Shown here: positions 1-38,370 of the stretch, piece after piece | Layout: the number at the start of each line of letters is the position of its first letter | Position numbering within the stretch: the stretch's first letter is position 1 | NCBI GenBank assembly: GCA_026397955.1 | Contig: JAPLTV010000120.1 | Location: 1 to 43,117, forward strand | Source of the DNA: Verrucomicrobiota bacterium | Lineage (GTDB): Bacteria; Verrucomicrobiota; Verrucomicrobiia; Opitutales; UBA953 | DNA: 43,117 bases | Direction of reading: 5' to 3' | The notes under the pieces: generated by a model | Seen by the model: the letters and a program-made list of their open reading frames with translations, nothing else | Told to the model about the DNA's origin: nothing | Database searches by the model: none | Program-made: the position numbers and the translations under genes

Positions 1-465
1 TGGCAGTCGCGTCAGTATCCCGGCCTCAGCTGGGACCTGCATGTCGGCGACTTCTGGCAGCTCGCGTGCAAGGTCTCCGCCGCGCCGGACATCATCTACT
101 ACGACTTCTTCTCGCAGAAGACCAATCCCGACGCCTGGGAACTTGAGTCGTTTGATAAGCTCTTCTCGTACTGCGATCCCAAGAAGTCGGCCCAGCTCTT
201 CACCTATTGCTCGTCGACGACCATGCGTGTCGCGTTGCTCAACTCAGGTTTCTATGTGGCGAACGGCGAGGGTACCGGCTCGAAGAAAGAAACGATTGTC
301 GCGCTCAGCCCTGGATTCCCGACCCCCTGCCCTTATCCGTTGGTCGGCCAGGAATGGCTCGAACGCTGGCGGAGGTCGTCGAAGAAATTCCCGGATGGCC
401 TGACGCCGGAGCAGCAGGCCGAGGTCGAGAAGAGGATTGAGGGACATAAGCAGTTTTTAGTGTGA
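1..465 (+). CDS. mnmD: MnmD-like tRNA 5-methylaminomethyl-2-thiouridine methyltransferase, 3' part
   Basis: The reading frame is open from base 1 and ends at TGA 463-465, so the gene begins outside the window; 154 codons are visible. The segment PDIIYYDFFSQKTNPDAWE followed by FDKLFSYC, then LFTYCSSTTMRVALLNSGF and GTGSKKETIVAL, matches the end of the DUF752/Methyltransf_30 domain of MnmC/MnmD (in MnmC: DAWFLDGF-x-PAKNPDMW ... LATFTSAGFVRRGLQEAGF ... GFGRKREM). Family members use S-adenosylmethionine to methylate the aminomethyl group of wobble uridine-34 in tRNA. The Asp of YYDFF is the expected active-site acid. There is no FAD oxidoreductase domain after it, so this is the stand-alone form rather than bifunctional MnmC. 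A 12-bp inverted repeat covers the stop codon. Confidence 0.62.
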   Translation, partial: WQSRQYPGLSWDLHVGDFWQLACKVSAAPDIIYYDFFSQKTNPDAWELESFDKLFSYCDPKKSAQLFTYCSSTTMRVALLNSGFYVANGEGTGSKKETIVALSPGFPTPCPYPLVGQEWLERWRRSSKKFPDGLTPEQQAEVEKRIEGHKQFLV

Positions 466-531
466 ACTAAAAACTGCGGGGGAACTGCTGGCATGGTGAA
501 CTGCTGCGAAGCAGTCGCGGCCAAGGCCGCG
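450..531 (+). repeat. Stop-codon hairpin plus repeat A, copy 1
   Basis: Perfect 12-bp inverted repeat: GCAGTTTTTAGT at 450-461 and its complement at 466-477, loop GTGA containing the TGA stop of the upstream gene. Repeat A starts at the next base (478) with GGGGGAACTGCTGG, then GCATGGTGAACTGC. It contains two small hairpins: CTGCT/AGCAG at 501-514 and CGCGGCC/GGCCGCG at 516-531. The hairpin may terminate transcription, but no T-run follows; the conserved G-run takes its place. Confidence 0.7.
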
Positions 532-663
532 CGGGGGCCTGCTGGCAGGCTGACATGCTGCGAAGAAGGCGCGGCGGAGCCGCTTGCTGGCATGGGTAAT
601 GGTGATCTGCTGCGAAGCAAATTGGTGGCAGGTGGCGGCCCCAGGTTGCGGGTGGCGGTAAGA

Positions 664-978: not shown

Positions 979-1054
979 CGGCCACCATGCGGCGGCCTCT
1001 GCTTCGCAGCTGTTCACCATGCCAGCAGTTCCCCCATGCGGCCGATGGCCGCAT
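979..1054 (-). repeat. Hairpin plus repeat A, copy 6 (reverse strand)
   Basis: Read on the minus strand, a perfect hairpin ATGCGGCC/GGCCGCAT (1036-1054, 3-nt loop) is followed at once by GGGGGAACTGCTGG and GCATGGTGAACAGC (1035 downward), then CTGCGAAGCAG. This is the only copy not at the end of a visible gene: on this strand the region upstream is the divergently transcribed vWA gene. It may be a displaced copy or mark a gene that has been lost. Confidence 0.65.
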
Positions 1055-1088
1055 GACTTAACCTTCCCTTAACGTCGGGGTTGATATA

Positions 1089-2360
1089 GTGATACGCCTT
1101 CCCCACGTGGATTCCACTCCGCCCAAGCCGCCCCGTCTGCGCTCCCGCGCGCCGACGCCCCCGCCGCCTCCGCCCCCACCGGCGGAGAGCGTGGCCGCGG
1201 CCGCGCCCGAGCCGGCGCCGGAACCGAAGCCTGAGGGGAAGTCTAATAAATCGATCTTCAGTCACCGCTTCTTCCGTTTTGGCGGCGAAGGCCTGGTTGT
1301 GTCGTTGATGATCCACGGCCTGCTATTGTTCCTGGCCACGGCCTGGGTGGTCTCGGTCTCCACCAATCAGAAGAAAGAGCCGAACAGCTTCGCGACCGGA
1401 GCCGGCGGTGGCAACGGCGGCGAGCGGGCGATCGCGCAGAAGACCAAGGCTAAGCCCAATTCGCCGAAGAGCCTGACCAAGAGCGCGTCCCGGATCACCT
1501 CCAAGAGCGCCAGCGCGCAGATCGCGCTACCGGACATGCCGGACATGAATCGTGTCGCGCTGGGAGCACTGGCTTCGTCCTCGAAGGGTTTCGGCGGCGG
1601 CGCGGGCGGCGGGATCGGTGGCGCGGGCGGCATCGGTAAGGGCGGTAAGAATTTCACCGGCCGTTCCGTCATGGGCATGAAGATCAGCGGCGCGCACATC
1701 GCGGTGTACTTCGACAACTCGCCCTCGATGGAACCGTATCTGTCCGGCGTCGAGAAGCAGATCAAGGAGCAGTTCCCGAACGCCGACGTGTTTCGCTATT
1801 TTGGCATCTTCAACCTGAATCAGGACGGCGAAGTCGTGGGCGGTAAGCCTAACCAGAAATACGCGGTCGAGACCGTCGAGCAGATCGCCTCGAACCGTGG
1901 CGGCGGCCGGAGGGCTGCGGCCAACGACCCCGGCAAGTTCAGCCCTGCTGGGCGCAATATGCTGGCCGCCAAGGATGCCCAATTCCGCGTCGGCGGGGTC
2001 GGCGCGTGGATCGACGTCATGCTCCAGCAGAAACAGTATGACGCCATCGTCATCTTCTCGGACTTCGAGGACGGCATCATGCAGTATCGCGCCAAGGGAG
2101 GGGACCGACCGCGACTCGTGTTCGACGCCGATCTCATTCCGCGCTCGGACGATCGTACCGCTGAGGAAAAGGCTTGGGAAGAGCGCTGGGTGCAGACCTT
2201 CGGGCTCGCGGCCGACCACAAGGCCCCGCGTCTGTATCTCTATTCCACATCCAAGGAGCCCCAGGAACTTTACCAACGCTGCGTCACCGCTTCCGGCGGG
2301 GAGTTTAAGATGGTGACCATGCAGCGAGGGGGGATGTTCCCGTCGCCTAAAAAGAAATAG
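1089..2360 (+). CDS. Membrane-anchored vWA-like protein with proline-rich N-terminus
   Basis: 423 codons from GTG 1089. An in-frame TAA at 1059-1061 and no other ATG/GTG/TTG in between fix this as the longest start, with GGGG eight bases upstream. Layout: proline-rich tail with eight consecutive Pro (residues 24-31) and PEPAPEPKPE; one membrane helix (about 68-90, GLVVSLMIHGLLLFLATAW); Lys/Ser-rich region; a glycine-rich linker near 165-185; and a C-terminal domain opening IAVYFDNSPSMEPYL (about 202-216). DNSPS resembles the DxSxS metal site of von Willebrand A domains, and a predicted strand DAIVIFSDFEDG follows later. The helix after a Pro-rich cytoplasmic tail recalls TonB-like or gliding-type architectures, but no TonB C-terminal domain is seen. 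Function unknown. An 8-bp inverted repeat flanks the stop. Confidence 0.72.
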   Translation: MIRLPHVDSTPPKPPRLRSRAPTPPPPPPPPAESVAAAAPEPAPEPKPEGKSNKSIFSHRFFRFGGEGLVVSLMIHGLLLFLATAWVVSVSTNQKKEPNSFATGAGGGNGGERAIAQKTKAKPNSPKSLTKSASRITSKSASAQIALPDMPDMNRVALGALASSSKGFGGGAGGGIGGAGGIGKGGKNFTGRSVMGMKISGAHIAVYFDNSPSMEPYLSGVEKQIKEQFPNADVFRYFGIFNLNQDGEVVGGKPNQKYAVETVEQIASNRGGGRRAAANDPGKFSPAGRNMLAAKDAQFRVGGVGAWIDVMLQQKQYDAIVIFSDFEDGIMQYRAKGGDRPRLVFDADLIPRSDDRTAEEKAWEERWVQTFGLAADHKAPRLYLYSTSKEPQELYQRCVTASGGEFKMVTMQRGGMFPSPKKK

Positions 2361-2413
2361 GCGACGGAGGGGGAACTGCTGGCATGGTGAACGGCTGCGA
2401 AGCAGTCGCGGCC
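2340..2413 (+). repeat. Stop-codon hairpin plus repeat A, copy 2
   Basis: CCGTCGCC at 2340-2347 (coding, just before the last codons) pairs perfectly with GGCGACGG at 2360-2367, with the TAG stop (2358-2360) at the loop/arm junction. After one base, repeat A begins: GGGGGAACTGCTGG at 2369, GCATGGTGAACGGC, CTGCGAAGCAG, then CGCGGCC/GGCCGC. It continues into module B (GTAAACTAGTTGACCGG, from about 2414), which also follows copy 3. Confidence 0.7.
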
Positions 2414-2981: not shown

Positions 2982-2987
2982 ACCCCC

Positions 2988-7933: not shown

Positions 7934-9127
7934 ATGCGTTTATTGAGTCTAGCTCTTGGCCTCCTTTTCCTGAGTGGCTGCAAGCCAGAGAAACCGATGC
8001 CTGACAACGAGAATGCGGTGACGGCTTTCGCGCTGCAGCACTTCATCGACAGCGATGAGATCAGTGGAGCCGTGACTGCCGTGGTCGGCCCGGATGGCAT
8101 CATCGCGATCGAGGCCTTCGGTTTGGCGGACATCGCCAAGAAGCGCTCGATGGGCAAGGACTCGATGTTCTGGATCGCCTCGATGACCAAGCCCATGACC
8201 GCCATGGGCGTCATGATGCTCGTCGAAGAAGGCAAGGTGAAGCTCGACGACCCGCTCGAGAAATACGTCCCGGAATTCAAAGGCATCCAGGTGAAGACCC
8301 CGCAGGGACTCGTCGCCGCGACACGCCTCGTCACCGTCAAGGACCTCCTCACGCACACCAGCGGCGTCGACACCGGAGCCGTCACCCCGCCCGGTGCGGC
8401 GATTGACACCCTGCTCTTAGCAGCGATGGCCGCCGCTTACGCCAAGAAGCCGCTGACCGACCAGCCCGGGGCCAAGTGGAGCTATAACAATAACGCCATC
8501 AATCTGCTCGGACGCATCATCGAAGTGGCCAGCGGCAAGCCCTATGCCGATTTCATGGAAGAACGCCTGTTCGAGCCGCTCGGCATGACCAACACCACCT
8601 TCTGGCCGACGCCGGATCACTTGGACGTCGCCGCCCAGCCGTACAGCAAGAACAAGGAAACCGGCGCACTCGTCGAAGCCAAGAACAGCCGCTTCAGCGA
8701 ACCGCTCCACGACACCAAGCGCACCCCCTTCCCGGCTGGCGGCTTGTATTCGTGCGCCAAGGACCTCGGCAAGCTTTACCAGATGCTCCTCAACGACGGC
8801 GAACTGGGCGGTAAGCGTTACCTCAAGGCCGCGACCCTGAAGCAGATGACCAGCAACCAGCTCGGCGACCTGCCCAAGGTTAGCTTCGCGCCCGGCATGC
8901 ACATGGGCCTGGGTTTCCATATCGTGAACGCTCCCCAGGAAGTCACCGAAAGCCTGAGCATCGGAACGTTCGGCCACGGCGGGGCCTTCGGCACCCAGGC
9001 CTGGATTGATCCCGTCAAGAAGCGGGCCTACGTCCTACTCATCCAGCGCGTGGACCTCAAGAATTCGGACCAGAGCGATATCCGTCGCGAGTTCCAGAAG
9101 GCGGCGAAGGAAGCGTACGCGCGCTGA
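7934..9127 (+). CDS. Lipoprotein serine hydrolase, beta-lactamase/EstB-like
   Basis: 397 aa. The signal peptide ends in a lipobox LSGC (Cys16), so the mature protein is probably a lipoprotein. The three class C beta-lactamase/penicillin-binding-protein motifs are present: S83-M-T-K86 (SxxK, nucleophile Ser83), Y184-N-N (YxN), and H348-G-G in GTFGHGGAFG near the C-terminus. LTHTSGVD, NLLGRIIEVASGKPY and LFEPLGMTNTTF are typical of family members that are esterases or D-aminopeptidases rather than antibiotic-resistance enzymes. The substrate cannot be read from sequence. ATG 7934 is the only start that keeps the signal peptide intact; a nearby ATG at 7923 is out of frame. Single-gene unit. Confidence 0.85.
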   Translation: MRLLSLALGLLFLSGCKPEKPMPDNENAVTAFALQHFIDSDEISGAVTAVVGPDGIIAIEAFGLADIAKKRSMGKDSMFWIASMTKPMTAMGVMMLVEEGKVKLDDPLEKYVPEFKGIQVKTPQGLVAATRLVTVKDLLTHTSGVDTGAVTPPGAAIDTLLLAAMAAAYAKKPLTDQPGAKWSYNNNAINLLGRIIEVASGKPYADFMEERLFEPLGMTNTTFWPTPDHLDVAAQPYSKNKETGALVEAKNSRFSEPLHDTKRTPFPAGGLYSCAKDLGKLYQMLLNDGELGGKRYLKAATLKQMTSNQLGDLPKVSFAPGMHMGLGFHIVNAPQEVTESLSIGTFGHGGAFGTQAWIDPVKKRAYVLLIQRVDLKNSDQSDIRREFQKAAKEAYAR

Positions 9128-9196
9128 ACGAAGCTCAGCGCGGGGGGTCTGCTGGCATGGTGAACGGCTGCGAAGCAGTCGCGGCCGAGGCCGCAG
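9120..9196 (+). repeat. Stop-codon hairpin plus repeat A, copy 3
   Basis: CGCGCTGA (9120-9127, including the TGA stop 9125-9127) pairs perfectly with TCAGCGCG (9135-9142). A G-run follows directly, then TCTGCTGG, GCATGGTGAACGGC, CTGCGAAGCAG and CGCGGCC/GGCCGC. Module B follows from about 9197. Confidence 0.7.
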
Positions 9197-9346
9197 GTAA
9201 ACTAGTTGATCGGTTGACCAGTTGGCCGGTTGGCCAGATTCGAGGACACGAGGACAGGAGGGCCCGAGGGCAAGAGAAAGGCAGTGCTTCGGGTGGCAGG
9301 TGGCAGCCCCAGGGGCTCGGGAGGCGGGGATCATTCTCGGGTGGCA

Positions 9347-9403
9347 GGTAGGGCTGGCCATCCTTGGCCGGCCGCGGTCGAGCAGGGATGCTCGACCCTA
9401 CCC
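9347..9403. repeat. 57-bp twin-hairpin element, copy 1
   Basis: GGTAG, then GGCTGGCCA/TCCT/TGGCCGGCC (9352-9373, one mismatch), then GGTCGAGCA/GGGA/TGCTCGACC (9376-9397, perfect), then CTACCC. The copy at 18473-18529 has the same length; its second hairpin carries C:G where this one has T:A (9378 with 9395). Confidence 0.6.
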
Positions 9404-9627
9404 GATGCAGCGGACGCGATGGCAATCGCCGCCCTACCCCGCGCGGCGGAGCCGCGAGGTATTAGCGGTTAGCGGATGGCGGTTGGGAAGACAGAGAGGC
9501 AGCGGCCGGCCAAGGATGGCCAGCCCTACCCAAGACAGCGGCAACTATGTCGTGACGCGGTCCCGACCCTACCTCGAGACAACTAGGGCAGCACGCGGTG
9601 CTGCCCCTACCTTTGATACAGCGTAAT

Positions 9628-15225: not shown

Positions 15226-15722
15226 AAAAATGAGAGGCCCGGAGGCTCAGAGGCTCGGTGGACCAGAGAGAGGCAGACTAGTTGATCGGTTGATCAGTGG
15301 GCCGGTTGGCCAGATTCGAGGACACGAGGACAGGAGGGCCCGTGGGCAAGAGAAAGGCAGTGCTTCGGGTGGCAGGTGATGGGGAGGTAGGGACGTGATT
15401 GCCATCACGTCCGTTCGCGACGGCACATCCGAATGTAAACCGAGCCAGACCAAGACCCGACGACTCCCGGCCTCGGGCTCGAACGGCGGCGATGGCAATC
15501 GCCGCCCTACCCAGAGCGTCGGAGCCGCGAGGTATTAGCGGTTAGCGGTTGGCGGCGGGGAAGACAGAGAGGCAGCGGCCGGCCAAGGATGGCCAGCCCT
15601 ACCCGAGGCAGAGGTAACTAGGACAGCACGTGGTGCTGTCCCTACCACGATACAGGGCGGACGCGTCGCCGACGCGTCCCTACCCTGCTTCGCAGCGGAT
15701 CCCCACGCGCCCAGCGGGCGCG
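15204..15722. repeat. Intergenic repeat mosaic between tolC and the porin
   Basis: No gene. It holds GAGGCCCGGAGGCTCAG words (15234-15272), module B (15277-15313), CGAGGACACGAGGACAGG words (15317-15352), a GGTGGCAGG module, and framed element copy 2 (15386-15512). Then come the GTTAGCGG module (15534-15556), GGCCGGCCA/AGGA/TGGCCAGCC (15577-15598) + CTACCC, GGACAGCAC/GTG/GTGCTGTCC (15621-15641) + CTACC, GGACGCGTC/GCC/GACGCGTCC (15659-15679) + CTACCC, and repeat A copy 7 on the minus strand. Confidence 0.7.
15386..15512. mobile_element. MITE-like framed element, copy 2
   Basis: Same ends as 664-787: GGTAG + GGACGTGAT/TGCC/ATCACGTCC (15391-15412) + GTTCG at left, CTCGAAC + GGCGGCGAT/GGCA/ATCGCCGCC (15485-15506) + CTACCC at right. 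The interior of roughly 60 bp shows no obvious similarity to that of copy 1, apart from a few bases next to the frame. Confidence 0.6.
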
Positions 15723-15723
15723 T
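15685..15723 (-). repeat. Hairpin plus repeat A, copy 7 (shortened, reverse strand)
   Basis: Directly after the porin's stop codon on the minus strand, ACGCGCCC/GCT/GGGCGCGT (15723 down to 15705, perfect 8-bp arms; its first A is the last base of the TAA stop) is followed by GGGG, ATC and CGCTGCGAAGCAG. The middle of repeat A (CTGGCATGGTGAA) is missing. Position and order match the full copies. Confidence 0.55.
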
Positions 15724-16976: not shown

Positions 16977-18368
16977 ATGACCCTCTCTCGTCGAAACTTC
17001 CTGCGTACCGCCGCGCTCGCGACCCTCGCCTTTCCGGCGATCGTCCGGGCACGTAACCTGAACTCGCAGGTCCAGATCGCCGCGGTCGGCGTCGACGGCA
17101 AGGGCTTCTCCGATATCGCCGAATGCGCCTCCCACCCCAAGGCGCACTTCGTCGGCTTCTGCGATATCGACGCCAGCCGTTTCGCCCACATCGACAAGAA
17201 GCTTCCCGGCGTGACGCATTACAGCGATTGGAGAGAGATGTTCACCTGGCTCGGCGACGGCTTCGACGCCGTGACCGTCTCGACCCCCGACCACATGCAT
17301 GCGCTACCGACCATCATGGCCATGCGCCTGGGCAAGCACGTCTACTGTCAGAAGCCGCTCACCCACACCGTCTGGGAAGCACGCCAGCTGCGCCTCCAAG
17401 CCGCCAAATCGAAGGTCCGAACCCAGATGGGCAACCAGATCCATTCCGCCAAGGAATACCGCACCGGCGTGAAGCTCATCCAGTCCGGCCGCATCGGCAA
17501 GGTCCTCGCCGTGCACAGCTGGCACCCTAACACCGGCAACAAATACACCGGTATGACCGCCGCCCCCGCTTCCGGCCCCGTGCCCGCCGGCGTGAGCTGG
17601 GACCTCTGGCTCGGCACCGCGCCGAGCCGTGAGTTCGCGCCTGACGTCTATCATCCTTTCAAATGGCGCGACTGGGTGGATTTCGGTAGCGGCACCATGG
17701 GCGACTTCGGTTGCCACCTGCTCGACCCCGTCTTCACCGCGCTCAAGCTCGGTACGCCCCTCAGCGTCAAGGCGGACAGCGTCGGCGCCAATACGCAGAC
17801 CTGGTGCGCCCAGCAGACCATCGAGTGGGTCTTCCCCGGCACCGAGTTCACCAAAGGTAACACCCTCTCCGTCACCTGGTACGACGGCGGCCGCCTACCG
17901 GATGCCACGCTCGCACTACTTCCGCCCGGCAAGACCTTGTCCGCCGCTGGCTCGATCTTTATCGGCGAACACGGAGTCATGATGTTGCCGCACGTCGCCA
18001 TGCCGCAGCTCTTCCCCGAAGAGAAGTTCGGCAAGAACCTCAACCCGGGCGACCTCGCCCGACGTGCGCGCGCCCAGGTTAAGCCCACCGACAAAGTCGC
18101 CATCGATCTCCCGGATTTCGTCGAAGGCTCCAGCCATTATCATGCTTGGGTCGACGCGATCGCTGATGGCCACGAGACCACGGATAATTTCGCCTACGCC
18201 GGCCCGCTGACCGAAGCCGTGCAGCTCGGCAACGTCGCCTCGCGCTTCTCGGGCGTGAAGCTCGATTGGGATGCCGCCGCCATGAAGTTCCCGAACAAGC
18301 CCGAAGCCGAAGCGTTGTTGACGAAGAGTTATCGCAAGGGGTGGGAGCTCATTGCCGCTGACCGGTAA
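16977..18368 (+). CDS. Tat-exported Gfo/Idh/MocA family oxidoreductase
   Basis: 463 aa. It starts with a twin-arginine signal (SRRNFLRTAALATLAFPAIVRA, about 4-25), so the enzyme is likely folded with its nicotinamide cofactor in the cytoplasm and then exported. A Rossmann domain follows: VQIAAVGVDGKGF, FCDIDASRF, DAVTVSTPDHMHA. The catalytic-lysine motif, usually EKP, is here Q125-K126-P127 in VYCQKPLTHT. The C-terminal alpha/beta domain contains GSGTMGDFGCHLLDPV and WVDAIADGHETTDNFAYAGPLTEAV. Family members oxidise or reduce sugars, often at C3. In this context a role in making or reducing 3-keto sugars from polysaccharide fragments is plausible, not shown. A 9-bp inverted repeat spans its stop codon. 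Confidence 0.88.
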   Translation: MTLSRRNFLRTAALATLAFPAIVRARNLNSQVQIAAVGVDGKGFSDIAECASHPKAHFVGFCDIDASRFAHIDKKLPGVTHYSDWREMFTWLGDGFDAVTVSTPDHMHALPTIMAMRLGKHVYCQKPLTHTVWEARQLRLQAAKSKVRTQMGNQIHSAKEYRTGVKLIQSGRIGKVLAVHSWHPNTGNKYTGMTAAPASGPVPAGVSWDLWLGTAPSREFAPDVYHPFKWRDWVDFGSGTMGDFGCHLLDPVFTALKLGTPLSVKADSVGANTQTWCAQQTIEWVFPGTEFTKGNTLSVTWYDGGRLPDATLALLPPGKTLSAAGSIFIGEHGVMMLPHVAMPQLFPEEKFGKNLNPGDLARRARAQVKPTDKVAIDLPDFVEGSSHYHAWVDAIADGHETTDNFAYAGPLTEAVQLGNVASRFSGVKLDWDAAAMKFPNKPEAEALLTKSYRKGWELIAADR

Positions 18369-18434
18369 GGCGGTCAGCGCGGGGTTCTGCTGGCATGGTG
18401 AACTGCTGCGAAGCAGTCGCGGCCGATGGTCGCG
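18356..18434 (+). repeat. Stop-codon hairpin plus repeat A, copy 4
   Basis: CGCTGACCG (18356-18364, last coding bases) pairs perfectly with CGGTCAGCG (18371-18379); the TAA stop (18366-18368) is in the 6-nt loop. After one base, GGGGTTCTGCTGG, GCATGGTGAACTGC and CTGCGAAGCAG follow, then CGCGGCC/GAT/GGTCGCG (18419-18434, one G:T mismatch). The tail continues with CATGGGTATTGGTGATCT, also present after copy 1 (near 590-608). Confidence 0.7.
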
Positions 18435-18472
18435 TGGGGGCATGGGTATTGGTGATCTACTGCGAGGCAGCT

Positions 18473-28786: not shown

Positions 28787-28818
28787 GGCCAGGGCTGGGG
28801 CTAGACAAACGAGAGGCA

Positions 28819-28868
28819 GTGCAAAGGTGCAAATCGGAGCGGAGCTCCTGTGCAAAAGTGCAAAAGTG
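28819..28868. repeat. Module C, copy 3
   Basis: GTGCAAAGGTGCAAATC, hairpin GGAGC/GGA/GCTCC (28836-28848), then TGTGCAAAAGTGCAAAAGTG. Same stem as copy 2 with a different loop. Confidence 0.65.
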
Positions 28869-29060
28869 AGAGGACGGGCTCAAAGGGGGCAGCATAGGGA
28901 AACCGGATAGTTTGCGGGGGTGCATCTAAGGAAGGGGGCGTGCGGCCCGCGCGCCTACGGATGACCGGGCCGGTCATCCCTACCCATACCCACAGCAAAC
29001 ATCCCGGTCTCCGGTCTCCCTTTGCGCGAATTGAACGCTTCGGGTGGTGGGTTTTCGACT

Positions 29061-29151
29061 CTGCCATCGATTCAGTCATCTGCCATCGACGCAGTAATCT
29101 ATCCAGCCCTCCATTCAGTCCTCTATTCTGTCCTCTATTCAGACCTCCACA
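29061..29151 (+). repeat. 19-bp and 12-bp tandem repeats in the DUF1080-fusion leader
   Basis: CTGCCATCGATTCAGTCAT and CTGCCATCGACGCAGTAAT lie head to tail (29061-29079, 29080-29098). Four 12-mers follow: CAGCCCTCCATT, CAGTCCTCTATT, CTGTCCTCTATT, CAGACCTCCACA (29104-29151). The same 12-mers occur before the genes at 32971 and 38784. Confidence 0.55.
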
Positions 29152-29272
29152 TTGTAGCGGGCTAACCGCCAACCGCTAACCGCTAGCCGCCGTAACCGAA
29201 TACACTCCATTTCCCGCCATTTGAACAAGTGGCGTTGACGGGTGTCCAAGGGGCATAGACAAACATTGACCC

Positions 29273-32200
29273 ATGAGAAACCCCCTCTCTGCGCTGCTGG
29301 CTTTCCTGCTGGTCGCCCTCGCCCCTCTTTCCGCCCAGGACGGCTTCAAGCCGATCTTCGACGGCAAGTCCCTCGCCGGCTGGGACGGCAACCCTGACCT
29401 CTGGTCCGTCGAGGACGGCTGCCTCACCGGGAAGACCAAGGGCCCGGACCATCTCGCTTATAATCAGTTCCTCGTCTGGCGCGGCGGCGTGCTCAAGAAC
29501 TTCGAGCTGCGCGCCAAGATCAAGTGCTCCGCCAGCAACTCCGGCATCCAGTATCGCAGCAAGGAGCTCGCCGAGGTCGGCAAGTGGGTCATCGGTGGCT
29601 ACCAGTGCGACGTCCATCCTTCGGCCGCCTATAACGGCATGATCTACGAAGAGCGCGCCCGCGGCATCCTCGTGCAGAATGGCCAGAGCGTCATCGTGGA
29701 TGAAAAGGGGGGCAAGTGGCTCGCCGCCGAGCATGAGCCCGTGAAGGTCAACTATTCGGAGTGGCACGAATACGCCGTCATCGCCAACGGAAACCACATC
29801 ATCCAGAAGGTCGACGGCAAGGTCACCATCGACCTCGTCGATCATGATGAGAAAGCCCGTTCGCTCGAAGGCCTGCTCGCCTTCCAGGTGCACCGCGGTC
29901 CGGCCATGATCGTCCAGATCAAGGACGTCATGCTCAAGGAACTCCCTGCAGGCGGCCTCCTGTCCCAGGAGAAGAACCCGATTCCGAGCGACGCGCAGAA
30001 AATCGAGAAGCCCGCGCCCAAAGCCAAGAAAGCTCCGGCCAAGAAGGCTGAGCCGATCGTGAAGCCCGCCACCAAGGCCTTCCTCCAGCTTGCCGCCGAC
30101 GCCCCGAAGGCGAAGGCCAAGGCTAAGGCTCCCGCCAAGAAGACGCCGGCCGACGCCAACACCGGCAAGGCCATCGGCGAGAACAAGGCCACGCCGGTCG
30201 ACCGCATCAAAGCCCCCGAAGGCTTCAAGGTCGAGCTCCTCTACTCCGTCCCCGGCGACGTCCAAGGCTCCTGGGTCGCGCTCTGCGCCGACGACAAAGG
30301 CCGCATCTATGCCAGCGACCAGTACGGCGACCTCTATCGTTTTCCCGCGCCCGCCCCAGGCCAGCCGCTCAAGGCCGACGACGTAAAGAAGATGCCCGTC
30401 AACATCCGCGCGATCAACGGCATGGTGTGGGCCTTCGGCGCCCTCTACGCCGGCGTCAACGATTACGAGAAGAAGATCCCCAGCGGCTTCTATCGCCTCA
30501 GCGACAGCAAGGGCGACGACCAGATCGACAAGGTCGAACTCCTTCGCGCGATCGAATCCGGCGGCGACCATGGCGTCCACAAGGTCGTCGTGACGCCTGA
30601 CCAAAACGGCTTCTACCTCATCTGCGGCAACAACGCCGTGAAGACCGAGACCCCCGCCACCTCCCCGGTCGCGCCGCTCTGGGGTGACGACCATCTCCTG
30701 CCCCGCATGCCAGACGGCCGCGGCCACAACCGCCACGTCCTCGCTCCAGGTGGTATCGTCTACCGTATCAGCAAGGACGGCAAGACCTTCGAGACCTTCG
30801 CCAGCGGCTTCCGCAACATCTACGGTGGCGCCGTCAACCGCGCCGGCGACCTGTTCACGTATGACGCCGACATGGAGTACGACTTCAACACCTCTTGGTA
30901 TCGCCCGACCCGCGTGAACCACGTCGTCAGCGGCGGTGAATACGGCTGGCGCAACGGCGCCGGCAAGTATCCCGAGTTCTACCCCGACTCCCTGCCCGCT
31001 ACGGTGAACATCGGCCCTGGTTCGCCCACCGGCATCGCGTTCGGCTACGGCGCCAAGTTCCCCGCCAAGTATCAGGAATCGCTCTTCATCCTCGATTGGA
31101 GCTGGGGCAAAATCTACGCCATCGACCTCAAGGCCAAGGGCGCCAGCTACGCCGGCACCAAGACCGACTTCATCGGCGGTTCGCCGTTGCCCGTCACCGA
31201 CCTCCTCATCCACCCGCAGGACGGCGCGATGTATTTCGCCATCGGCGGCCGCAAGGTGCAGTCGGGCCTCTACCGCGTGACCTATGTCGGCAAGGAATCC
31301 ACGGACACGATCAAGTATCAGCCGGAAGCCCCTTCCGCCGAAGTCCTCGCCCGCAAGGCCCTCGAGCAGTTCCACGGCAAGCAGGACCCCAAGGCCGCGG
31401 ACGCCGCCTGGCCTTACCTGTCCTCGCCTGACCGCTGGCTGCGTTTCTCCGCCCGCGTCGTGCTCGAGCACCAGCCCTACGCCGGCTGGAGCGAACGCGC
31501 CTTTGCCGAGAAGAATACCACCGCTCGCCTCGAAGCGCTCCTCGCGCTGGCCCGCCAGGCCGCCAAGTGCCCTTACCACACCGACAAGGCCGCCAAGCCT
31601 GATCCGCGCACCGGCATCGCGCCGACGACCGCCGAGCCCACCGCCGCGGAAGCCGTGCTGCGTGATCGCCTACTCGCCTCCCTGCGTGCCGACGATTTCA
31701 GCCAGCTCACCCTGGAACAGAAGCGCCTGCATGTACGCCTGACCGAGATCATCCTGCACCGTTACGGCAACCCTGACGCCACCGGCGTCGCCGCGATCAT
31801 CGCCCAGTATGACGCCGCCTATCCTACGGCCGACTTCGGCCTCAATTGGATGCTGACCGAGACCCTCGGCCACCTGCAATCGCCGACGCTCGCCGCCAAG
31901 GCCATGGCGCTCGTCGCCAACGCCGGAAGCCAAGAGCCTGAACTCGAGATCATGCGCAGCGTGCGCATGCTCAAGGCCGGTTGGACGCCCGCCCTGCGCG
32001 AGGCCCAGCTTAACTGGTTCGTCAAGGCTGCTAGCTACCGCGGCGGCTCCAGCTTCGGCAAGTTCGTCGAGTTCATCCGGAACGACAGCCTCGCGACCTT
32101 CACGCCCGAGGAGCTCGGCCGTCACGACAAGCTCATCGCGCTCGCCAAGAACCCGCCCGTGAAGTCGGCGTACGAGAACGTCGGCGCCATGTTCGCCGGC

Positions 32201-32713
32201 CGCACGCCCAAGAGCTGGACGCTCGAGGAGCTCAGCGCCGCGACCAAGACCGGCCTGAAGAACCGGGATTTCGACCAGGGTCGTAAGGTCTTCAGCGCCG
32301 CGGCCTGCTTCGCCTGCCACCGCTTCGGTAATGCCGGCGGCATGACCGGCCCCGACCTCACCCTCGCCGGCGGCCGCTACAGCCCGCACGACTTCCTCGA
32401 CCAGATCATCAACCCGAGCAAGGTGATCAACGAGCAGTTCGCGCCGGTCATCGTCACCAAGAACAACGGCGAGACCTTCAGCGGCGTCGTCGTCAACCTC
32501 AACGGCGACCGTGTCAGCATCAACACCGACCTCTCCGACCCCTCCCAGCAGGTCTCCATCGACCGCAAGGAAGTAAAGAGCATCGAGCTGAGCACCATCT
32601 CGCCCATGCCGCCCATGCTCCTGAGCATGCTCACGCAGCAGGAGATTCTCGATCTCGTGGCCTACGTCCTGAGCGGCGGAGACAAGGAGAACGGCTTCTT
32701 CCAGAAGAAGTAA
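29273..32713 (+). CDS. DUF1080 domain fused to PVC-type haem-binding dehydrogenase
   Basis: 1146 aa with a signal peptide (about 1-22). Domain 1 (about 25-225) is DUF1080, the 3-keto-disaccharide hydrolase family: [81 protein letters not shown]. A Lys/Ala/Pro-rich linker (about 240-305) leads to a beta-propeller resembling PVC membrane-bound dehydrogenases ([24 protein letters not shown] ... [26 protein letters not shown]). Then comes an alpha-helical HEAT-like region, then a cytochrome c domain with C1012-F-A-C1015-H1016 and [17 protein letters not shown]-type ending. DUF1080 enzymes cleave 3-keto glycosides by elimination. Joining one to a haem domain suggests that oxidation and cleavage occur on one exported protein (inference). 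Confidence 0.85.
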   Translation: [1146 protein letters not shown]

Positions 32714-32970
32714 GCGCGGCGGAGCCGCCACACTAGAGGCTCCGAGGCCCAGAGGCCCGGAGGACCAGAAGTAAGACTCATAACAGACCGGGACCGAAAG
32801 GTACCCGGTCTCTTTGTTTTGGGTAGGAAAGTTTCGGGTGGCGGGTGGCGGCCCCGGGTGGCGGGTGGCGGGCTAATCTATTCTGCCCTCGATTCAGCCC
32901 TCCATTCTTCAATACCCCCCTTCCCCTCCTTGCCTCCTGTCAGCTGGCCCACTAATCCTACCGCATCCCC
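32714..32970. repeat. Spacer with terminator, GGTGGC module and 12-mer leader
   Basis: GCGGC/GGA/GCCGC (32716-32728) right after the stop codon, then GAGGCTCCGAGGCCCAG words (32735-32770), the intrinsic terminator (32785-32820), GGGTGGCGGGTGGCGG twice (32837-32872), 12-mers CTATTCTGCCCT, CGATTCAGCCCT, CCATTCTTCAAT (32878-32913), and a 50-bp leader (32921-32970) shared with the gene at 38784 (41 of 50 positions identical by my count). No gene. Confidence 0.65.
32785..32820 (+). terminator. Intrinsic terminator after the DUF1080 fusion gene
   Basis: AGACCGGG (32785-32792) and CCCGGTCT (32804-32811) enclose a second stem ACC/GGT with a GAAA tetraloop, followed by CTTTGTTTT. The stem, tetraloop and T-rich tail make this the clearest plus-strand terminator in the window. 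Confidence 0.85.
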
Positions 32971-35490
32971 ATGAGCGCCCGCTTCGCCCTTGTCACCCTA
33001 TGTCTGGCCGTCTCGTCGGCGTCCGCCGCCGACCCGGTGGAATTCAACCGCGACATCCGTCCGATCCTTTCCGACAACTGCTTCTATTGCCACGGCAACG
33101 ATGCGAGCCATCGCAAGGCTAAGCTCCGCTTGGATATCCGCGAGGAAGCACTGAAAAAAGAAGCCTTCGTACCGGGCAAGGCCGACGCCAGCGAACTCGT
33201 GAAGCGACTCTTCCTCACCGATCCGGATGAGATGATGCCTCCGCCCGACTCGCATAAGAAGCTGACGCCGGAACAGAAGGAACTCCTCAAGCGCTGGGTC
33301 GCCGAAGGCGCGAAATACCAGAACCACTGGTCGTACGAAGCTCCGAGCAAAGCTGCCGTCCCGTCGACGGAGAAGGCGATCGATTCGCTCATTGCCGCCC
33401 GCCTCAAGACCAAGGGCGTCGCGCCCTCCGCCGAAGCGGATCGTCGCACCCTCGCCCGCCGCCTCCATTCCGACCTACTGGGCCTGCCGCCCACGCCTGA
33501 GGAAGTCGACGCCTTCGTGAAGGACACGTCACCCGACGCCTACGCCCAGCTCGTCGACCGCCTGCTGGCTTCGCCGCATTACGGCGAACGCATGGCCACC
33601 GCCTGGCTCGATGTCGTCCGCTTCGCCGACACGATCGGCTACCACAGCGACGCCCCGCGCAATGTCTGGCCCTACCGCGACTACGTCATCCGCAGCTTCA
33701 ACCAGAACAAACCCTTCGATCGCTTCACCCTCGAGCAGGTCGCCGGCGACCTGTTGCCGGACTCCGATCAGGAGGCCAAGATCGGCTCCGGTTTCAACCG
33801 CCTGCTCCTGACCACCGAAGAAGGCGGTGCCCAGGCTAAGGACTACCAGCAGCGCATGCTGAACGACCGCGTCCGTGCGGTCGGCGCCGCCTGGCTCGGC
33901 CAGACCACCGGCTGCGCCCAGTGCCATGACCACAAGTTTGACCCGTTCACCCAGCGCGACTTCTTTACCCTCGGAGCGTTCTTCGCCGATATCAACGAAC
34001 CCGATATCGGTCGCCGCGAGGAAGGCATGCTGCTCTCGACTCCGGACGAGGCGAAGCGCCTCACCGAACTCGCGGGCGAAGTGGCTAAGGCAAAGAAAGC
34101 CCTGGATGTCGCCACACCTTCCCTCGCTGAAGCCATCGCCGCCTGGGAACAGGAACTCGCCGAAGAAGGCAAACCCGCGCCCGCCGCCAAGAAGACCAAG
34201 GCGAAGGCCAAGCGCAAAGACCCCGACGCCAAGCTCGCCGCCCAAGCGACGCCGATCCTGAAGAAGCCGGCCGCGAAGCGTTCCGCCGCCGAGAAGACGA
34301 TTATCCGCGACTACTACCTCTCACTGCACCCCGAAGCCCTCAAGGCCGAGCGCGAGGCGCTTGCCCAGGCTCAGAAGACCCATGACACCTTCCGCGCCGC
34401 CATCCCGAAGTCGCTCGTCACGACCAAGGCCGCCGTCGTCCGCACCGTCCGCATCCTGCCCCGCGGCAATTGGATGGATGAGTCCGGCGAAGTCGTGAAG
34501 GCCGCCCTGCCCCACTACCTACCTCAGCCCAAATTCGAAGGCCGCGTGCCGGACCGTCTCGACCTCGCCAAGTGGCTCGTCGCCCGCGAGAACCCGCTCA
34601 CCGCCCGCGTCGTCATGAACCGCCTTTGGGCACAGTTCTTCGGCACCGCGCTGAGCAAGAACCCTGGAGACCTCGGCGCCCAAGGTGAACTCCCGCCCAA
34701 CCAGGCGTTGCTCGATTGGCTCGCCGTCGAGTTCGTGGACGCCAAGTGGGACATGAAGCACATGGTGCGCCTCATCGTGACCAGCGAAGCCTATCGTCGT
34801 AGCTCCGTGGCGACACCCGCGCAGACCGCCGCCGATCCCTACAACCGCGAACTCGCCCGCCAGAGCCCTTATCGCCTCGATGCGGAACTCGTCCGCGACA
34901 ACGCCCTCGCCATCGCGGGCCTACTCGCCCCCAAGATCGGCGGACCCAGCGTGAAGCCCTATCAACCGGACCGCTACTGGGAGAACCTCAACTTCCCCGT
35001 GCGCGAGTACATGGCTGACAAGGATGAGTCGCAGTATCGCCGCGGTCTCTACGTCTGGTGGCAGCGCAGCTTCCTGCATCCGAGCATGCTCGCCTTCGAC
35101 GCTCCCAGCCGTGAGGAATCCTGTACCGACCGCACCCGCTCGAACATCCCGCAGCAGGCGCTCGTGATGCTCAACGACCCGACCTACGTCGAAGCCTCCC
35201 GTGCTTTTGCAGTCCGCACGCTTGCCGAGAAGGGCGACGACGACCATCGCCTCACCTGGGCTTGGCGCCGCGCCCTGCAGCGCGATCCGGACGCCAAGGA
35301 ACTCGGGACGCTCCGCAAGGTGCTCACTGAACGCCGTGCCGCATACAAGGCCGACCCTGCTGCCGCCAAGGAGCTCTTGAAAGTCGGCCTCACGCCTCCG
35401 CCAGCACAGGCCGACCCCTCCGAACTCGCCGCCTGGACGCACGTCACCCGCGTCGTCCTGAATCTGCACGAAACCCTGACCCGCGACTGA
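32971..35490 (+). CDS. PSD1 protein: haem-binding PSCyt1 + DUF1549 + DUF1553 (copy 2)
   Basis: 839 aa with a signal peptide (about 1-19). Same architecture as the protein at 23100 but shorter: haem motif C37-F-Y-C40-H41, KLRLDIREEALKKEAFVPGKADASELVKRLF, MPPPDSHKKL, then DUF1549 (RTLARRLHSDLLGLPPTPEEV ... YGERMATAWLDVVRFADTIGYHSDAPRNVWPYRDYVIRSFNQNKPFDRFTLEQVAGDLLP, shown only in part in family terms ... CAQCHDHKFDPF). An Ala/Lys-rich segment near 395-435 and DUF1553 follow (DRLDLAKWLVARENPLTARVVMNRLWAQFFG ... RSNIPQQALVMLND). The stop TGA overlaps the ATG of the DUF1501 gene by one base, so they are coupled. An exported haem protein of unknown reaction, probably working with the DUF1501 partners. 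Confidence 0.88.
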   Translation: MSARFALVTLCLAVSSASAADPVEFNRDIRPILSDNCFYCHGNDASHRKAKLRLDIREEALKKEAFVPGKADASELVKRLFLTDPDEMMPPPDSHKKLTPEQKELLKRWVAEGAKYQNHWSYEAPSKAAVPSTEKAIDSLIAARLKTKGVAPSAEADRRTLARRLHSDLLGLPPTPEEVDAFVKDTSPDAYAQLVDRLLASPHYGERMATAWLDVVRFADTIGYHSDAPRNVWPYRDYVIRSFNQNKPFDRFTLEQVAGDLLPDSDQEAKIGSGFNRLLLTTEEGGAQAKDYQQRMLNDRVRAVGAAWLGQTTGCAQCHDHKFDPFTQRDFFTLGAFFADINEPDIGRREEGMLLSTPDEAKRLTELAGEVAKAKKALDVATPSLAEAIAAWEQELAEEGKPAPAAKKTKAKAKRKDPDAKLAAQATPILKKPAAKRSAAEKTIIRDYYLSLHPEALKAEREALAQAQKTHDTFRAAIPKSLVTTKAAVVRTVRILPRGNWMDESGEVVKAALPHYLPQPKFEGRVPDRLDLAKWLVARENPLTARVVMNRLWAQFFGTALSKNPGDLGAQGELPPNQALLDWLAVEFVDAKWDMKHMVRLIVTSEAYRRSSVATPAQTAADPYNRELARQSPYRLDAELVRDNALAIAGLLAPKIGGPSVKPYQPDRYWENLNFPVREYMADKDESQYRRGLYVWWQRSFLHPSMLAFDAPSREESCTDRTRSNIPQQALVMLNDPTYVEASRAFAVRTLAEKGDDDHRLTWAWRRALQRDPDAKELGTLRKVLTERRAAYKADPAAAKELLKVGLTPPPAQADPSELAAWTHVTRVVLNLHETLTRD

Positions 35491-36902
35491 TGTTGCCGCC
35501 CGAACTGCGAGCCGCGCTCACGCGCCGTGCCTTCCTCGGCAAGACCGCCCAAGGCGTCGGCGGCGTCGCACTCGCTTCGTTGCTCGGCCCGGCCGCCATG
35601 GCCTCGCCCGGAGTGCTCTCGAGACTGCCGCTCCCCCAGAAGGCTAGGCGGGTGATCTGGCTGAGCATGGCCGGTGGCCCTTCACACCTGGAGACCTTCG
35701 ACCCCAAGCCCAAGCTCGCCGAGATGCATGGCCAGCCCATGCCCGAGAGTTTCACCAAGGGCCAGCAGCTCGCCCAGCTCCAAGGCCAGAAACTCACGTG
35801 CTTCGGCCCGCAGCATAAGTTCGCCAAGTTCGGCCGCAACCAGACTGAGATCTGCGAACTCTTCCCGCAGATCGGCTCCGTCATAGATGATGTCTGCCTC
35901 ATCCGCTCGATGACCACGGACGCGATCAACCACGATCCGGCTCACATGTTCATGAACACCGGCTCCCAGATCGCCGGCCGGCCGAGCATGGGCTCATGGG
36001 TGACCTACGGCCTCGGCGTCGAATCCGAGGACCTGCCGGGCTTCGTCGTCTTGACCTCGCTCGGTAAGGGCGGCCAGAACCAGCCCATCGCCGCGCGCCA
36101 ATGGAGCAGCGGCTTCCTCCCCTCTAAGCATCAAGGCGTTCAGTTACGCTCCAAGGGAGACCCCGTGATGTACCTCACCAATCCGCCCGGTGTCTCGCGC
36201 GATACCCAAGGTGGTGACGTCGACGCCATCGCAGCCCTTAATCTCCATCGCGACAAGGTCGTCGCCGATCCTGAGGTCGCCACGCGTATCGCCCAATATG
36301 AGATGGCCTTCAAGATGCAGGCCAGCGTGCCCAAGCTCATGGACGTCACGGCTGAAGACCCCAAGACCCTCGCCCTCTACGGTTGCGTGCCCGGTGACGG
36401 CTCTTTCGCCGCCAACTGCCTGCTCGCCCGGCGCCTCGCCGAACGCGGTGTGCGCTTCATCCAGCTCTACCACAAGGACTGGGACCACCATGGCGGCATC
36501 AAGGATGGCATCGCGCTCAAGGCCGCCGAGATCGACCGTGCCTGCATGGCGCTCATCACCGACCTCAAGCAGCGCGGCATGCTCGAAGACACCCTCATCG
36601 TGTGGGCCGGCGAATTCGGCCGCACCCCGATGTCGCAAGGCGGCAGCGGCCGCGATCACCACAGCAAGGCCATGACCGTCTGGATGGCCGGGGCCGGCAT
36701 CAAGGGTGGCATCGTCCACGGCCAGACCGACGAACTCGGCTACGCCGCCGTCGACAAGGTGACCACCGTGCACGACCTGCACGCCACCATGCTGCACCAG
36801 CTCGGCATCAACCACGAAGCGTTCTCGATCAAATTCCAGGGCCTCGACGCCAAGCTCACCGGTGTCGAACCCAGCAAACCCATCAAAGAGATTATCGCCT
36901 AA
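35490..36902 (+). CDS. DUF1501 protein (copy 2, first of a tandem pair)
   Basis: 470 aa starting in TGATG overlap with the PSD1 gene. Tat-type signal LTRRAFLGKTAQGVGGVALASLLG, then ARRVIWLSMAGGPSHLETFDPKPKL, RSMTTDAINHDPAHMFMNTGSQ, IAGRPSMGSWVTYGLG, FLPSKHQGVQLRSKGDPVMYL, GVRFIQLYHKDWDHHGGI, LIVWAGEFGRTPMSQGGSGRDHH, TVHDLHATMLHQLGINHEAFSIKFQGLDAKLTG. The C-terminal FQGLDAKLTGVEP-type ending is shared with the next gene. The two proteins are alike over their whole length (several runs of 15 or more identical residues), so they arose by tandem duplication. Activity unknown; the HDLHAT and GRDHH residues probably bind metal. Confidence 0.88.
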   Translation: MLPPELRAALTRRAFLGKTAQGVGGVALASLLGPAAMASPGVLSRLPLPQKARRVIWLSMAGGPSHLETFDPKPKLAEMHGQPMPESFTKGQQLAQLQGQKLTCFGPQHKFAKFGRNQTEICELFPQIGSVIDDVCLIRSMTTDAINHDPAHMFMNTGSQIAGRPSMGSWVTYGLGVESEDLPGFVVLTSLGKGGQNQPIAARQWSSGFLPSKHQGVQLRSKGDPVMYLTNPPGVSRDTQGGDVDAIAALNLHRDKVVADPEVATRIAQYEMAFKMQASVPKLMDVTAEDPKTLALYGCVPGDGSFAANCLLARRLAERGVRFIQLYHKDWDHHGGIKDGIALKAAEIDRACMALITDLKQRGMLEDTLIVWAGEFGRTPMSQGGSGRDHHSKAMTVWMAGAGIKGGIVHGQTDELGYAAVDKVTTVHDLHATMLHQLGINHEAFSIKFQGLDAKLTGVEPSKPIKEIIA

Positions 36903-38320
36903 TGTTTCCTGACCTTCGCCAGATCCATCGCCGTTCCTTCATCGGCAACACCAGCCGCGGCCTCGGTGCCGTCGCGCTGGCCTCGCTCCTCGGTCGCACT
37001 GGGCTGGAAGCGGCCCCCGGCGTACTCTCTAAGCTCCCCCTACCCCAGAAGGCCAAGCGCGTCATCTGGCTGACCATGGCCGGTGGTCCTTCCCAACTCG
37101 AGCTCTTCGACCACAAACCGAAGCTCGCCGAGATGGACGGTAAGGGTATGCCCGAAAGCTTCACCACCGGCCAGCAACTCGCGCAGCTCCAAGGCCAGAA
37201 GCTCATCTGCCAAGGGCCGCAGTTCAAATTCTCGAAGCACGGCAAAAACGGCACCGAACTGTCGGAGCTCCTGCCGCACCTCGGCTCGGTCGCCGACGAC
37301 ATCTGCGTCATCCGCTCGATGACCACGGACGCGATTAACCATGATCCGGCCCACATGTTCATGAACACCGGCTCGCAGATCGCCGGCCGTCCGAGCATGG
37401 GCTCCTGGGTCACTTACGGGCTGGGTTCCGAAGCCGAAGACCTCCCGGGCTTCGTCGTGCTGGTCTCCACCGGCAAGGGCCGCTCGCCCCAACCCATCGC
37501 TGCACGCCAATGGAGTAGCGGCTTCCTCCCCTCCAAGCACCAAGGCGTGCAACTCCGTTCCAAGGGCGACCCAGTCCTCTACCTCAACAATCCGCCTGGC
37601 ATTTCACGTGCCTCGCAGCAGGGCGACGTCGAGGCGATCAACAGCCTCAACCAAGTCCGTGCCGGCGAAGTCAGCGACACCGAGGTCGCCACACGCATCG
37701 CGCAATATGAGATGGCATTCCGGATGCAGGCCAGCGTGCCCGGCCTCATGGATGTCACCGGCGAATCCGCCAAGACCCTCGAGCTCTACGGCTGCCAGCC
37801 CGGCGACGGCTCGTTCGCTTCCAACTGCATCCTGGCACGCCGTCTCGCTGAACGCGGGAGCCGCTTCATCCAGCTCTACCATCGCGATTGGGATCACCAC
37901 AGCCTTCTCAAGGAAGAGCTCCCCCTCCGCGCCAAGGAAGTCGACCGTGCCTGTATGGCGCTCATCACCGACCTCAAGCAGCGTGGGATGTTCGAAGACA
38001 CGCTTATCGTTTGGAGCGGCGAATTCGGCCGCACGCCGATGAAGCAGGGCGACAAAGGTCCGGTCGGCCGTGACCACCATAACAAGGCGATGTCCATGTG
38101 GCTCGCCGGCGCCGGCGTCAAAGGCGGCCTGACCCATGGCGCCACCGACGAACTCGGCTACGCCGCGATGGACAAAGTCTGCACCGTCCACGACCTGCAC
38201 GCCACCATGCTCCACCAGCTCGGCATTAAACACGACGCCTTCACGATCAAGTTCCAGGGCCTCGACGCCAAACTCACCGGCGTCGAACCCAGTAAGGTGA
38301 TTAGGGAGATTTTGAGCTAG
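36902..38320 (+). CDS. DUF1501 protein (copy 3, second of a tandem pair)
   Basis: 472 aa from ATG 36902, which shares its A with the TAA stop of copy 2 (TAATG); an upstream extension of the frame lies inside copy 2 and is not coding. Tat-type signal IHRRSFIGNTSRGLGAVALASLLG, then the same motifs as copy 2 (AKRVIWLTMAGGPSQLELFDHKPKL, TTDAINHDPAHMFMNTGSQ, GRDHHNKAMSMWLAGAGVKGG, FQGLDAKLTGVEPSKVIREILS). Differences cluster in short patches, as expected after duplication with selection on both copies. PSD1 + DUF1501 + DUF1501 in one overlapping unit suggests that the two DUF1501 proteins work together or on related substrates. A 7-bp inverted repeat spans its stop. Confidence 0.88.
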   Translation: MFPDLRQIHRRSFIGNTSRGLGAVALASLLGRTGLEAAPGVLSKLPLPQKAKRVIWLTMAGGPSQLELFDHKPKLAEMDGKGMPESFTTGQQLAQLQGQKLICQGPQFKFSKHGKNGTELSELLPHLGSVADDICVIRSMTTDAINHDPAHMFMNTGSQIAGRPSMGSWVTYGLGSEAEDLPGFVVLVSTGKGRSPQPIAARQWSSGFLPSKHQGVQLRSKGDPVLYLNNPPGISRASQQGDVEAINSLNQVRAGEVSDTEVATRIAQYEMAFRMQASVPGLMDVTGESAKTLELYGCQPGDGSFASNCILARRLAERGSRFIQLYHRDWDHHSLLKEELPLRAKEVDRACMALITDLKQRGMFEDTLIVWSGEFGRTPMKQGDKGPVGRDHHNKAMSMWLAGAGVKGGLTHGATDELGYAAMDKVCTVHDLHATMLHQLGIKHDAFTIKFQGLDAKLTGVEPSKVIREILS

Positions 38321-38370
38321 GGCTTAGCCTAGCTGGGGGAACTGCTGGCATGGTGAACGGCTGCGAAGCA
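38315..38370 (+). repeat. Stop-codon hairpin plus repeat A, copy 5
   Basis: AGCTAGG (38315-38321, including the TAG stop 38318-38320) pairs perfectly with CCTAGCT (38328-38334). GGGGGAACTGCTGG starts at the next base (38335), then GCATGGTGAACGGC and CTGCGAAGCA, where this copy breaks off. Confidence 0.7.

Follow-up and report, generated by a model that had tools for sequence, protein, structure and literature searches.

A GGGG-headed repeat behind stop codons in a Verrucomicrobiota genus often follows hairpins that mirror the ends of the host genes

The stretch of DNA analysed here, hereafter the window, comprises 43,117 nucleotides (nt) of contig JAPLTV010000120.1 from a Verrucomicrobiota bacterium (GCA_026397955.1; Opitutales, UBA953) and is one contig of a 2.45 Mb genome assembled in 126 contigs. 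It carries seven copies of a short repeat, Repeat A, named here after the position of their cores: 478, 2369, 9142, 18381, and 38335 on the forward strand and 1035 and 15704 on the reverse strand (Table 1). The first-pass annotation of the window had described a perfect hairpin directly ahead of the G-run of each copy, and all seven copies were recovered with a perfect inverted repeat ending 0–1 base ahead of the G-run. At five copies the stop codon of the upstream gene lies within the arm or the loop, and at a sixth (15704), whose core is degenerate, the hairpin begins on the last base of the stop, both as originally described. The copy at 1035 looks towards a gene start, and there is no stop codon there. 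Comparison with orthologous gene ends, presented below, leads us to conclude that the gene-end hairpins are inverted copies of the end of the gene that are repeatedly rewritten, rather than targets for insertion of the repeat.

Table 1. Repeat A cores and adjoining hairpins in the window. Lower-case letters are loops; hairpins on the reverse strand are given in the minus-strand reading; cores were assigned with the sequence-only core model.
Feature	Position	Strand	Arm and length	Remarks
Gene-end hairpin GCAGTTTTTAGT-gtga-ACTAAAAACTGC	450..477	+	GCAGTTTTTAGT, 12 bp	TGA stop 463-465 in loop
Repeat A core	478..515	+		E 3e-14
Repeat A core, reverse	998..1035	-		Inverted partner of copy 478
Hairpin CATGCGGCC-atc-GGCCGCATG	1035..1055	-	(C)ATGCGGCC, 8-9 bp	Away from any stop codon
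Gene-end hairpin CCGTCGCCTA-aaaagaaa-TAGGCGACGG	2340..2367	+	CCGTCGCC(TA), 8-10 bp	TAG stop 2358-2360 in right arm
Repeat A core	2369..2406	+		
Gene-end hairpin CGCGCTGA-acgaagc-TCAGCGCG	9120..9142	+	CGCGCTGA, 8 bp	TGA stop in left arm; orthologs compared
Repeat A core	9142..9179	+		
Degenerate core (GGGGATCCGCTGCGAAGCAG)	15685..15705	-		Internal deletion; E 0.07
Hairpin ACGCGCCC-gct-GGGCGCGT	15705..15723	-	ACGCGCCC, 8 bp	Begins at final base of TAA, gene 15723-16919 (-)
Gene-end hairpin CGCTGACCG-gtaagg-CGGTCAGCG	18356..18379	+	CGCTGACCG, 9 bp	TAA stop in loop; orthologs compared
Repeat A core	18381..18417	+		
Gene-end hairpin AGCTAGG-gcttag-CCTAGCT	38315..38334	+	AGCTAGG, 7 bp	TAG stop 38318-38320 in left arm; orthologs in G041 (L166) and G013 (L193)
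Repeat A core	38335..38372	+		

The core model returned 59 matches in the source genome at an expectation value (E) ≤1. At E ≤0.01 the core was present in 30 of 95 genomes searched, the source genome included, and 29 of these 30 belong to the genus of the window, in which 55 genomes were searched and found to hold 0 to 55 matches each. Recurrence of the pattern across many separate assemblies, and on a 481-kb contig of genome G016, makes an assembly artefact unlikely (genomes, contigs, and loci are cited by our own G, C, and L handles). The host genus is known chiefly through environmental DNA; a protein search of named genomes yielded 17 loci, mostly in metagenome-assembled genomes titled Opitutae, Opitutia, Opitutales, Opitutus, or Verrucomicrobia, with one title Akkermansia muciniphila and one Opitutae bacterium BS6. 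A 34-base pattern of the repeat had no exact match among viral contigs, and the window had no match to Rfam 15 at the gathering score. The Y1 transposase domain (PF01797, E ≤1e-5) was detected in 9 of the 29 genomes with the core and 8 of the 26 without it; since it does not track the repeat, a Y1 transposase of the repetitive extragenic palindrome (REP)-associated tyrosine transposase type (RAYT) was rejected as its mobiliser.

The tie between hairpin and repeat extends beyond the window to the genus. We scored 166 copies and retained 137 (position weight matrix score ≥45; 29 dropped), which are the best-scoring among the fetched loci and include some orthologous, hence not independent, copies. 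A perfect arm of at least 7 bp ending no more than 3 nt ahead of the G-run was found in 76 of the 137, compared with 2.6% of shuffled flanks, 2.9% of random positions, and 2.6% of positions ahead of other GGGG runs; in the source genome, 20 of the 30 copies taken as loci have a perfect arm of at least 6 bp. With the same 6-bp threshold, hairpins occur on the stop side of a gene in 66 of 95 retained copies, far from genes in 7 of 13, inside called genes in 2 of 2, and without a neighbour in 1 of 3, while most start-facing copies lack one (present in 8 of 24). Ordinary, core-free stops rarely bear such hairpins: a stop-overlapping hairpin with arms of at least 8 bp was found at 6 of 276 in G000, 4 of 244 in G041, and 0 of 216 in five core-free congeners, and 7 of these ten precede, as judged by eye, a sibling or truncated repeat that begins with a G-run. 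Stop overlap is commoner in the selected set, where it was seen at 53 of 107 core-bearing stops, than in a small unbiased sample of stretches, where 1 of 12 core-bearing stops had such a hairpin (arm ≥7); in those stretches some arm of at least 8 bp lay near half (G000) or three quarters (G041) of the core-bearing stops.

To follow the arms between species, six ortholog sets comprising 134 gene ends were compared, namely four genes that we take to encode a DUF3472-like protein, a BtuB-like TonB receptor, an ACT-domain protein, and an SNF2-type helicase, together with window genes 7934-9127 and 16977-18368. At these ends, the last coding bases of the gene serve as the left arm. Across species, synonymous codon changes and the choice of stop codon are mirrored in the right arm, so that TAG is answered by CTA, TAA by TTA, and TGA by TCA. 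A stop-overlapping palindrome (arm ≥7) is present at 41 of the 53 ends that have a recognisable repeat head, as against 16 of the 81 that do not. Because the right arm tracks codons and stop between species and the palindrome associates with the repeat, the gene-end hairpin is best described as an inverted copy and not as an insertion target.

Individual genes illustrate this tracking. In the DUF3472-like gene, the final CGAAG and the stop are found both with and without the repeat, and GCTTACTTCG[T/C] only where the repeat or a degenerate head follows. The stop codon itself forms the loop in several species at the TonB-receptor end, for example, ACGAGGCGCTTC-TGA-GAAGCGCCTCGT in G004 and ACGCGTCGCTTC-TGA-GAAGCGACGCGT in G015; in G024, G011, and G028 the coding end is present and the inverted copy absent, while G034 and G042 lack the repeat, yet have a 7-bp palindrome at the stop. 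In the ACT gene, stops and right arms pair as TAG/CCTATCGG, TAA/GCTTAGCG, and TGA/GCTCAGCG. Genomes G013, G015, and G030 have a common sequence behind the core of the ACT gene, yet their arms differ and match internally. The first-pass annotation had asked whether the hairpin pre-exists in orthologs; at the ACT gene, G024 and G047 have no inverted copy despite a 98% identical protein. Among orthologs of window genes 7934-9127 and 16977-18368, matched palindromes occupy different registers of one gene end in different species, and the core or a sibling repeat usually comes next; at gene 7934-9127, however, a 12-bp palindrome of G024 precedes GGTCTAGAGCC, and GAGAGGACC and GAGGAGGACC lie behind imperfect palindromes in G037 and G002, respectively. 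In the SNF2-type gene, inverted copies of about 14–20 nt with one-base asymmetries were seen by eye in five species; in G034 no recognisable core accompanies the copy.

Under a stricter definition of the hairpin state (a perfect arm of at least 6 bp followed by GGG within 3 nt; ends that fail it are not all repeat-free), hairpins were scored at 12 of 30 TonB, 8 of 22 DUF3472, 11 of 30 ACT, and 1 of 14 SNF2 ends. A permutation of arm pairing was run at the TonB and ACT sites, the DUF3472 and SNF2 sets giving no test. Arms paired with their own partners at 7.75 and 8.0 of 8 positions and with those of other species at 4.0 and 2.6 (p = 0.008 each, approximately the minimum possible with five combinations). 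On gene trees with hand-assigned labels, the hairpin state requires three changes at the TonB site and four at the ACT site; at the TonB site the arms match internally in each species but differ within the sister pairs G015/G012 and G054/G016. Hairpins also persist beside truncated cores (G016, G007, G041, and G038). At L202/L232 (G038:C99), the gap between convergent genes has shrunk to two gene-end hairpins around GGGGGAACTTCCCCC, where the hairpins have outlived the repeat bodies.

Repeat A is one member of a family whose head is the hairpin, followed often by a CGN foot, a G-run of 4–6, and a body that is TGCTGGCATGGTGAACTGCTGCGAAGCAG or a sibling such as CACGTGGGCAAGGTGACACGG; its units lie mostly directly behind stop codons. 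We counted anchored palindromes (arm ≥7) over 1163 distinct stops, 652 of which had no listed repeat and were not scored. They were present ahead of the core at 58 of 88 stops and ahead of siblings at 14 of 23 and 1 of 2. Ahead of other repeats the counts were 0 of 26 for GTTGATCR arrays, 0 of 6 for GTGCAAA, 0 of 8 for GAGGACAC, 1 of 15 for GAGTAT arrays, 1 of 2 for AGGGAC, 3 of 109 for GGTAGGG hairpins, and 17 of 232 for other GGGG runs; several of these are variants of the same family. Sibling GGGG-headed repeats thus behave like Repeat A, and other gene-end repeats rarely do; the rule given in the first-pass annotation for Repeat A also extends to these siblings. Away from stops, arms of at least 6 bp precede 17 of 35 and 6 of 14 sibling units and 15 of 49 cores, and many of these siblings, in a sample judged by eye, bear a standard GC hairpin, CGCGGC-GGA-GCCGCG-A-GGGG.

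The CGN foot stands ahead of the G-run at 34 of 51 gene-overlapping palindromes, compared with a background of 30% among 3-mers taken from within the arms (p = 7e-8, post hoc). It is also present at 23 of 24 hairpins lying immediately downstream of stops and, where there is no palindrome, at 30 of 59 stop-side copies. Some copies form inverted pairs whose GGGG tips point outward and whose two flanks each carry a hairpin, such as 478/1035 in the window and 3920/4573 on C10. The members of such pairs lie about 137–653 bp apart, which we compared with the inverted ends of miniature inverted-repeat transposable elements; many copies are single.

The stems themselves bear on the level at which they arise. 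Sixty-eight of 80 distinct stems are perfect, in a set that is biased towards perfect ones as the stem finder penalises mismatches. Allowing G.U pairs raised the score of 48 copies, and allowing A.C pairs, the mirror-strand control, raised that of 43; a score of at least 7 was reached by 78 copies with Watson-Crick pairs, 90 with G.U, and 82 with A.C. Loops of 3 nt close 50 of the 80 stems, as opposed to 12 of 52 T-tract terminators of the same genus (p = 1.4e-5). Among those 50 loops, 26 have the sequence GNA or the complementary TNC, and the closing pair is C-G in 58 of the 80 stems; GNA turns are especially stable in DNA. The perfect stems, the at most slight excess of G.U over the control, and the short DNA-like turns favour copying at the DNA level, by template switching, over selection on RNA alone.

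Taken together, we propose that Repeat A and its siblings are REP-like elements that lie at stop codons and have their hairpins made anew as mirrored copies of the end of the host gene, a reading to which we assign a probability of about 0.55. The unit would have arrived with a hairpin and a foot. Right behind the stop, the DNA strand may then fold back at a short turn, copy its own gene end over some 7–16 nt, replacing the right arm, and rejoin the normal template at the foot, in a short template switch of the type that perfects quasipalindromes. Were this event to recur, the right arm would keep pace with the coding arm during species divergence. What these comparisons lead us to infer is the template switch by fold-back, its direction, and a mobiliser of the repeat. 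A stronger version is doubtful: a dedicated process would write the inverted host 3' end, stop included, at each installation or renewal of a GGGG-headed repeat, the element inheriting its shape and not its sequence. In the most extreme form, the folded-back gene end would be extended with the G-rich tract by a self-primed polymerase or reverse transcriptase.

Several observations weigh against the proposal that the hairpins are rewritten from the gene. The mutation events are deduced throughout from extant sequences, and the stem set carries the bias noted above together with a slight G.U excess. A perfect stop-overlapping palindrome is missing from 12 of the 53 head-bearing ends, and some hairpins have decayed, as at the ACT gene of G000. 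Conversely, of the 16 palindromes at ends lacking a recognisable head, 7 retain a G-run and a degenerate form of the head, 1 lies ahead of an AGGGAC array (G019), 4 have loops of 10–23 nt and may be due to chance, and about 4 look real without the repeat. The latter, at the TonB gene in G034 and G042 (L211, L227), gene X in G024 (L418), and the SNF2 gene in G034 (L294), are either leftovers after repeat loss or hairpins formed without the repeat. A 16-bp palindrome stands ahead of a GAGTAT array. Our first microhomology test, for an outermost CG, was negative (9 of 50), and the wider CGN-foot test came afterwards. The persistence of hairpins beside truncated cores could also be explained by selection. 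Part of the arm tracking could result from recombination between species that moves gene end and hairpin jointly; in G004 and G013 (G004:C137, L218, L234), adjacent convergent genes are 91% (DUF3472-like) and 64% (TonB receptor) identical, a contrast that suggests exchange across such a junction.

The main rival is selection on RNA, in which a hairpin at the 3' end of the mRNA acts as a terminator or exonuclease block and its arms stay paired via ordinary compensatory mutations; such selection may act in addition, although as the explanation it is unlikely. The concentration of hairpins at stop sides, their survival of core truncation, the G.U excess over A.C, and the repeat-free palindromes agree with it. 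It does not account well for stems that are mostly perfect with little G.U preference and 3-nt rather than 4-nt loops, for a G-run in place of a T-tract behind the hairpin, for sister-species arms that differ wholesale, or for the 4 of 30 source-genome copies (L009, L024, L027, and L030) that already have a T-tract terminator just downstream. The second rival, less probable, is a single fold-back at insertion, in which a freed 3' end snaps back, is extended, and is then linked to the repeat at its 5' GGGG end, later diversity arising through repeated insertions and recombination between species. Such an event would fit the inverted pairs with outward GGGG tips, the three hand-labelled state changes at the TonB site, and the differing registers at one gene end, which imply separate events. 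However, the shared sequence downstream of the ACT-gene core in G013, G015, and G030 goes with different matched arms, and many units away from stops carry, in the sample inspected by eye, the standard GC hairpin and not a copy of their flank. The first-pass annotation had offered, as one option, that the inverted copy of the gene end arises on insertion. The right arm is indeed such a copy, but one round of copying at insertion does not suffice, given the ACT species with one insertion, as judged from the downstream sequence, and the TonB sister species.

Its other option, that a mobile repeat enters beside pre-existing hairpins or terminators, is improbable. Group IIC introns insert next to hairpins and terminators, repeat and hairpin do adjoin here, and the four or so repeat-free palindromes may be pre-existing hairpins as well as remains of repeat loss. 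In general, though, such an entry is not supported, given the 65 of 81 headless ends that have no such palindrome, close orthologs included, and a target hairpin of the group IIC type was mostly rejected through these repeat-free orthologs. T-tract terminators sit downstream of several copies instead of forming the hairpin, and the loop statistics are unlike theirs. The mirrored-copy reading is retained over all of these.

Similarities with known systems are partial. REPs, as the passages of PMC3733652 on them describe, are short, multicopy, intergenic elements with a hairpin and an invariant GTAG or CGTC tag, abundant in Opitutus terrae, and their GTAG termini often supply the stop codon TAG. 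Repeat A is likewise a short palindrome in many intergenic copies. It differs from the REPs of those passages in that its foot is mostly CGN-GGGG and its gene-end stem derives from the host gene, whereas REP families are described there by stem sequence types. The gene-end copies have no stem sequence in common, though many units away from stops share the GC stem, and the Y1/RAYT association is absent. As Repeat A fails on tag, shared stem, and transposase, we do not class it as a REP, although it is REP-like in its working. Template switching, according to passages of PMC8794818 that concern microRNA and rRNA genes, creates and perfects hairpins by reverse-complement copying with simultaneous compensatory changes, and quasipalindrome mutation has been described in E. 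coli (PMC7202029). The hairpins studied here likewise have a reverse-complement right arm that is mostly absent from repeat-free orthologs; unlike those cases, they lie beside a repeat family, at gene ends, and copy codons and stop codons. Intrinsic terminators also place a hairpin close behind the stop codon. Here, in contrast, a G-run replaces the T-tract, loops are of 3 nt, and the hairpin overlaps coding sequence, and we rejected this assignment on the missing T-tract and the different loops. A literature search, most subscription journals lying outside its coverage, found no description of such mirrored gene-end hairpins.

Compensatory changes in a hairpin are commonly taken as a sign of selection at the RNA level. 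The genus described here offers dozens of natural sites with covarying, mostly perfect stems that show little RNA-like wobble and mirror codons and stop codons, and it may thus serve as a natural, countable set of cases in which to follow how bacterial hairpins may be created and maintained by template switching. It also cautions against taking covariation alone as function. Moreover, it would describe a repeat family that is defined by structure, its stem sequence being lent by the host gene.

Other repeats are also present in the window. GGTAGGG...CCCTACC hairpin units are numerous in intergenic regions, e.g., 660-700, 2640-2710, 9348-9410, and 18470-18530, and GGTAGGG was the first listed repeat behind 109 of the 1163 stops; they are probably GTAG-type REPs, as reported for Opitutus terrae in the passages of PMC3733652 on that genome. 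Degenerate arrays with a period of about 8 or 12 nt occupy 2426-2468, 9205-9237, 29086-29160, 32865-32917, and 38663-38750, with units that read GTTGATCG GTTGACCA... or TCCATTCAGTCC...; the Repeat A core can also be read by eye as the 8-mers GGGGAACT GCTGGCAT GGTGAACT GCTGCGAA. Long imperfect palindromes, TGGGGTCAGA...TCAGACCCCATT, at approximately 2757-2802 and 9629-9666 constitute another repeat family. Finally, positions 27344-38320 hold a cluster of genes that are presumably DUF1501-like and PSD1/cytochrome-type, with tandem copies at 35490 and 36902 that are about 75–81% alike.

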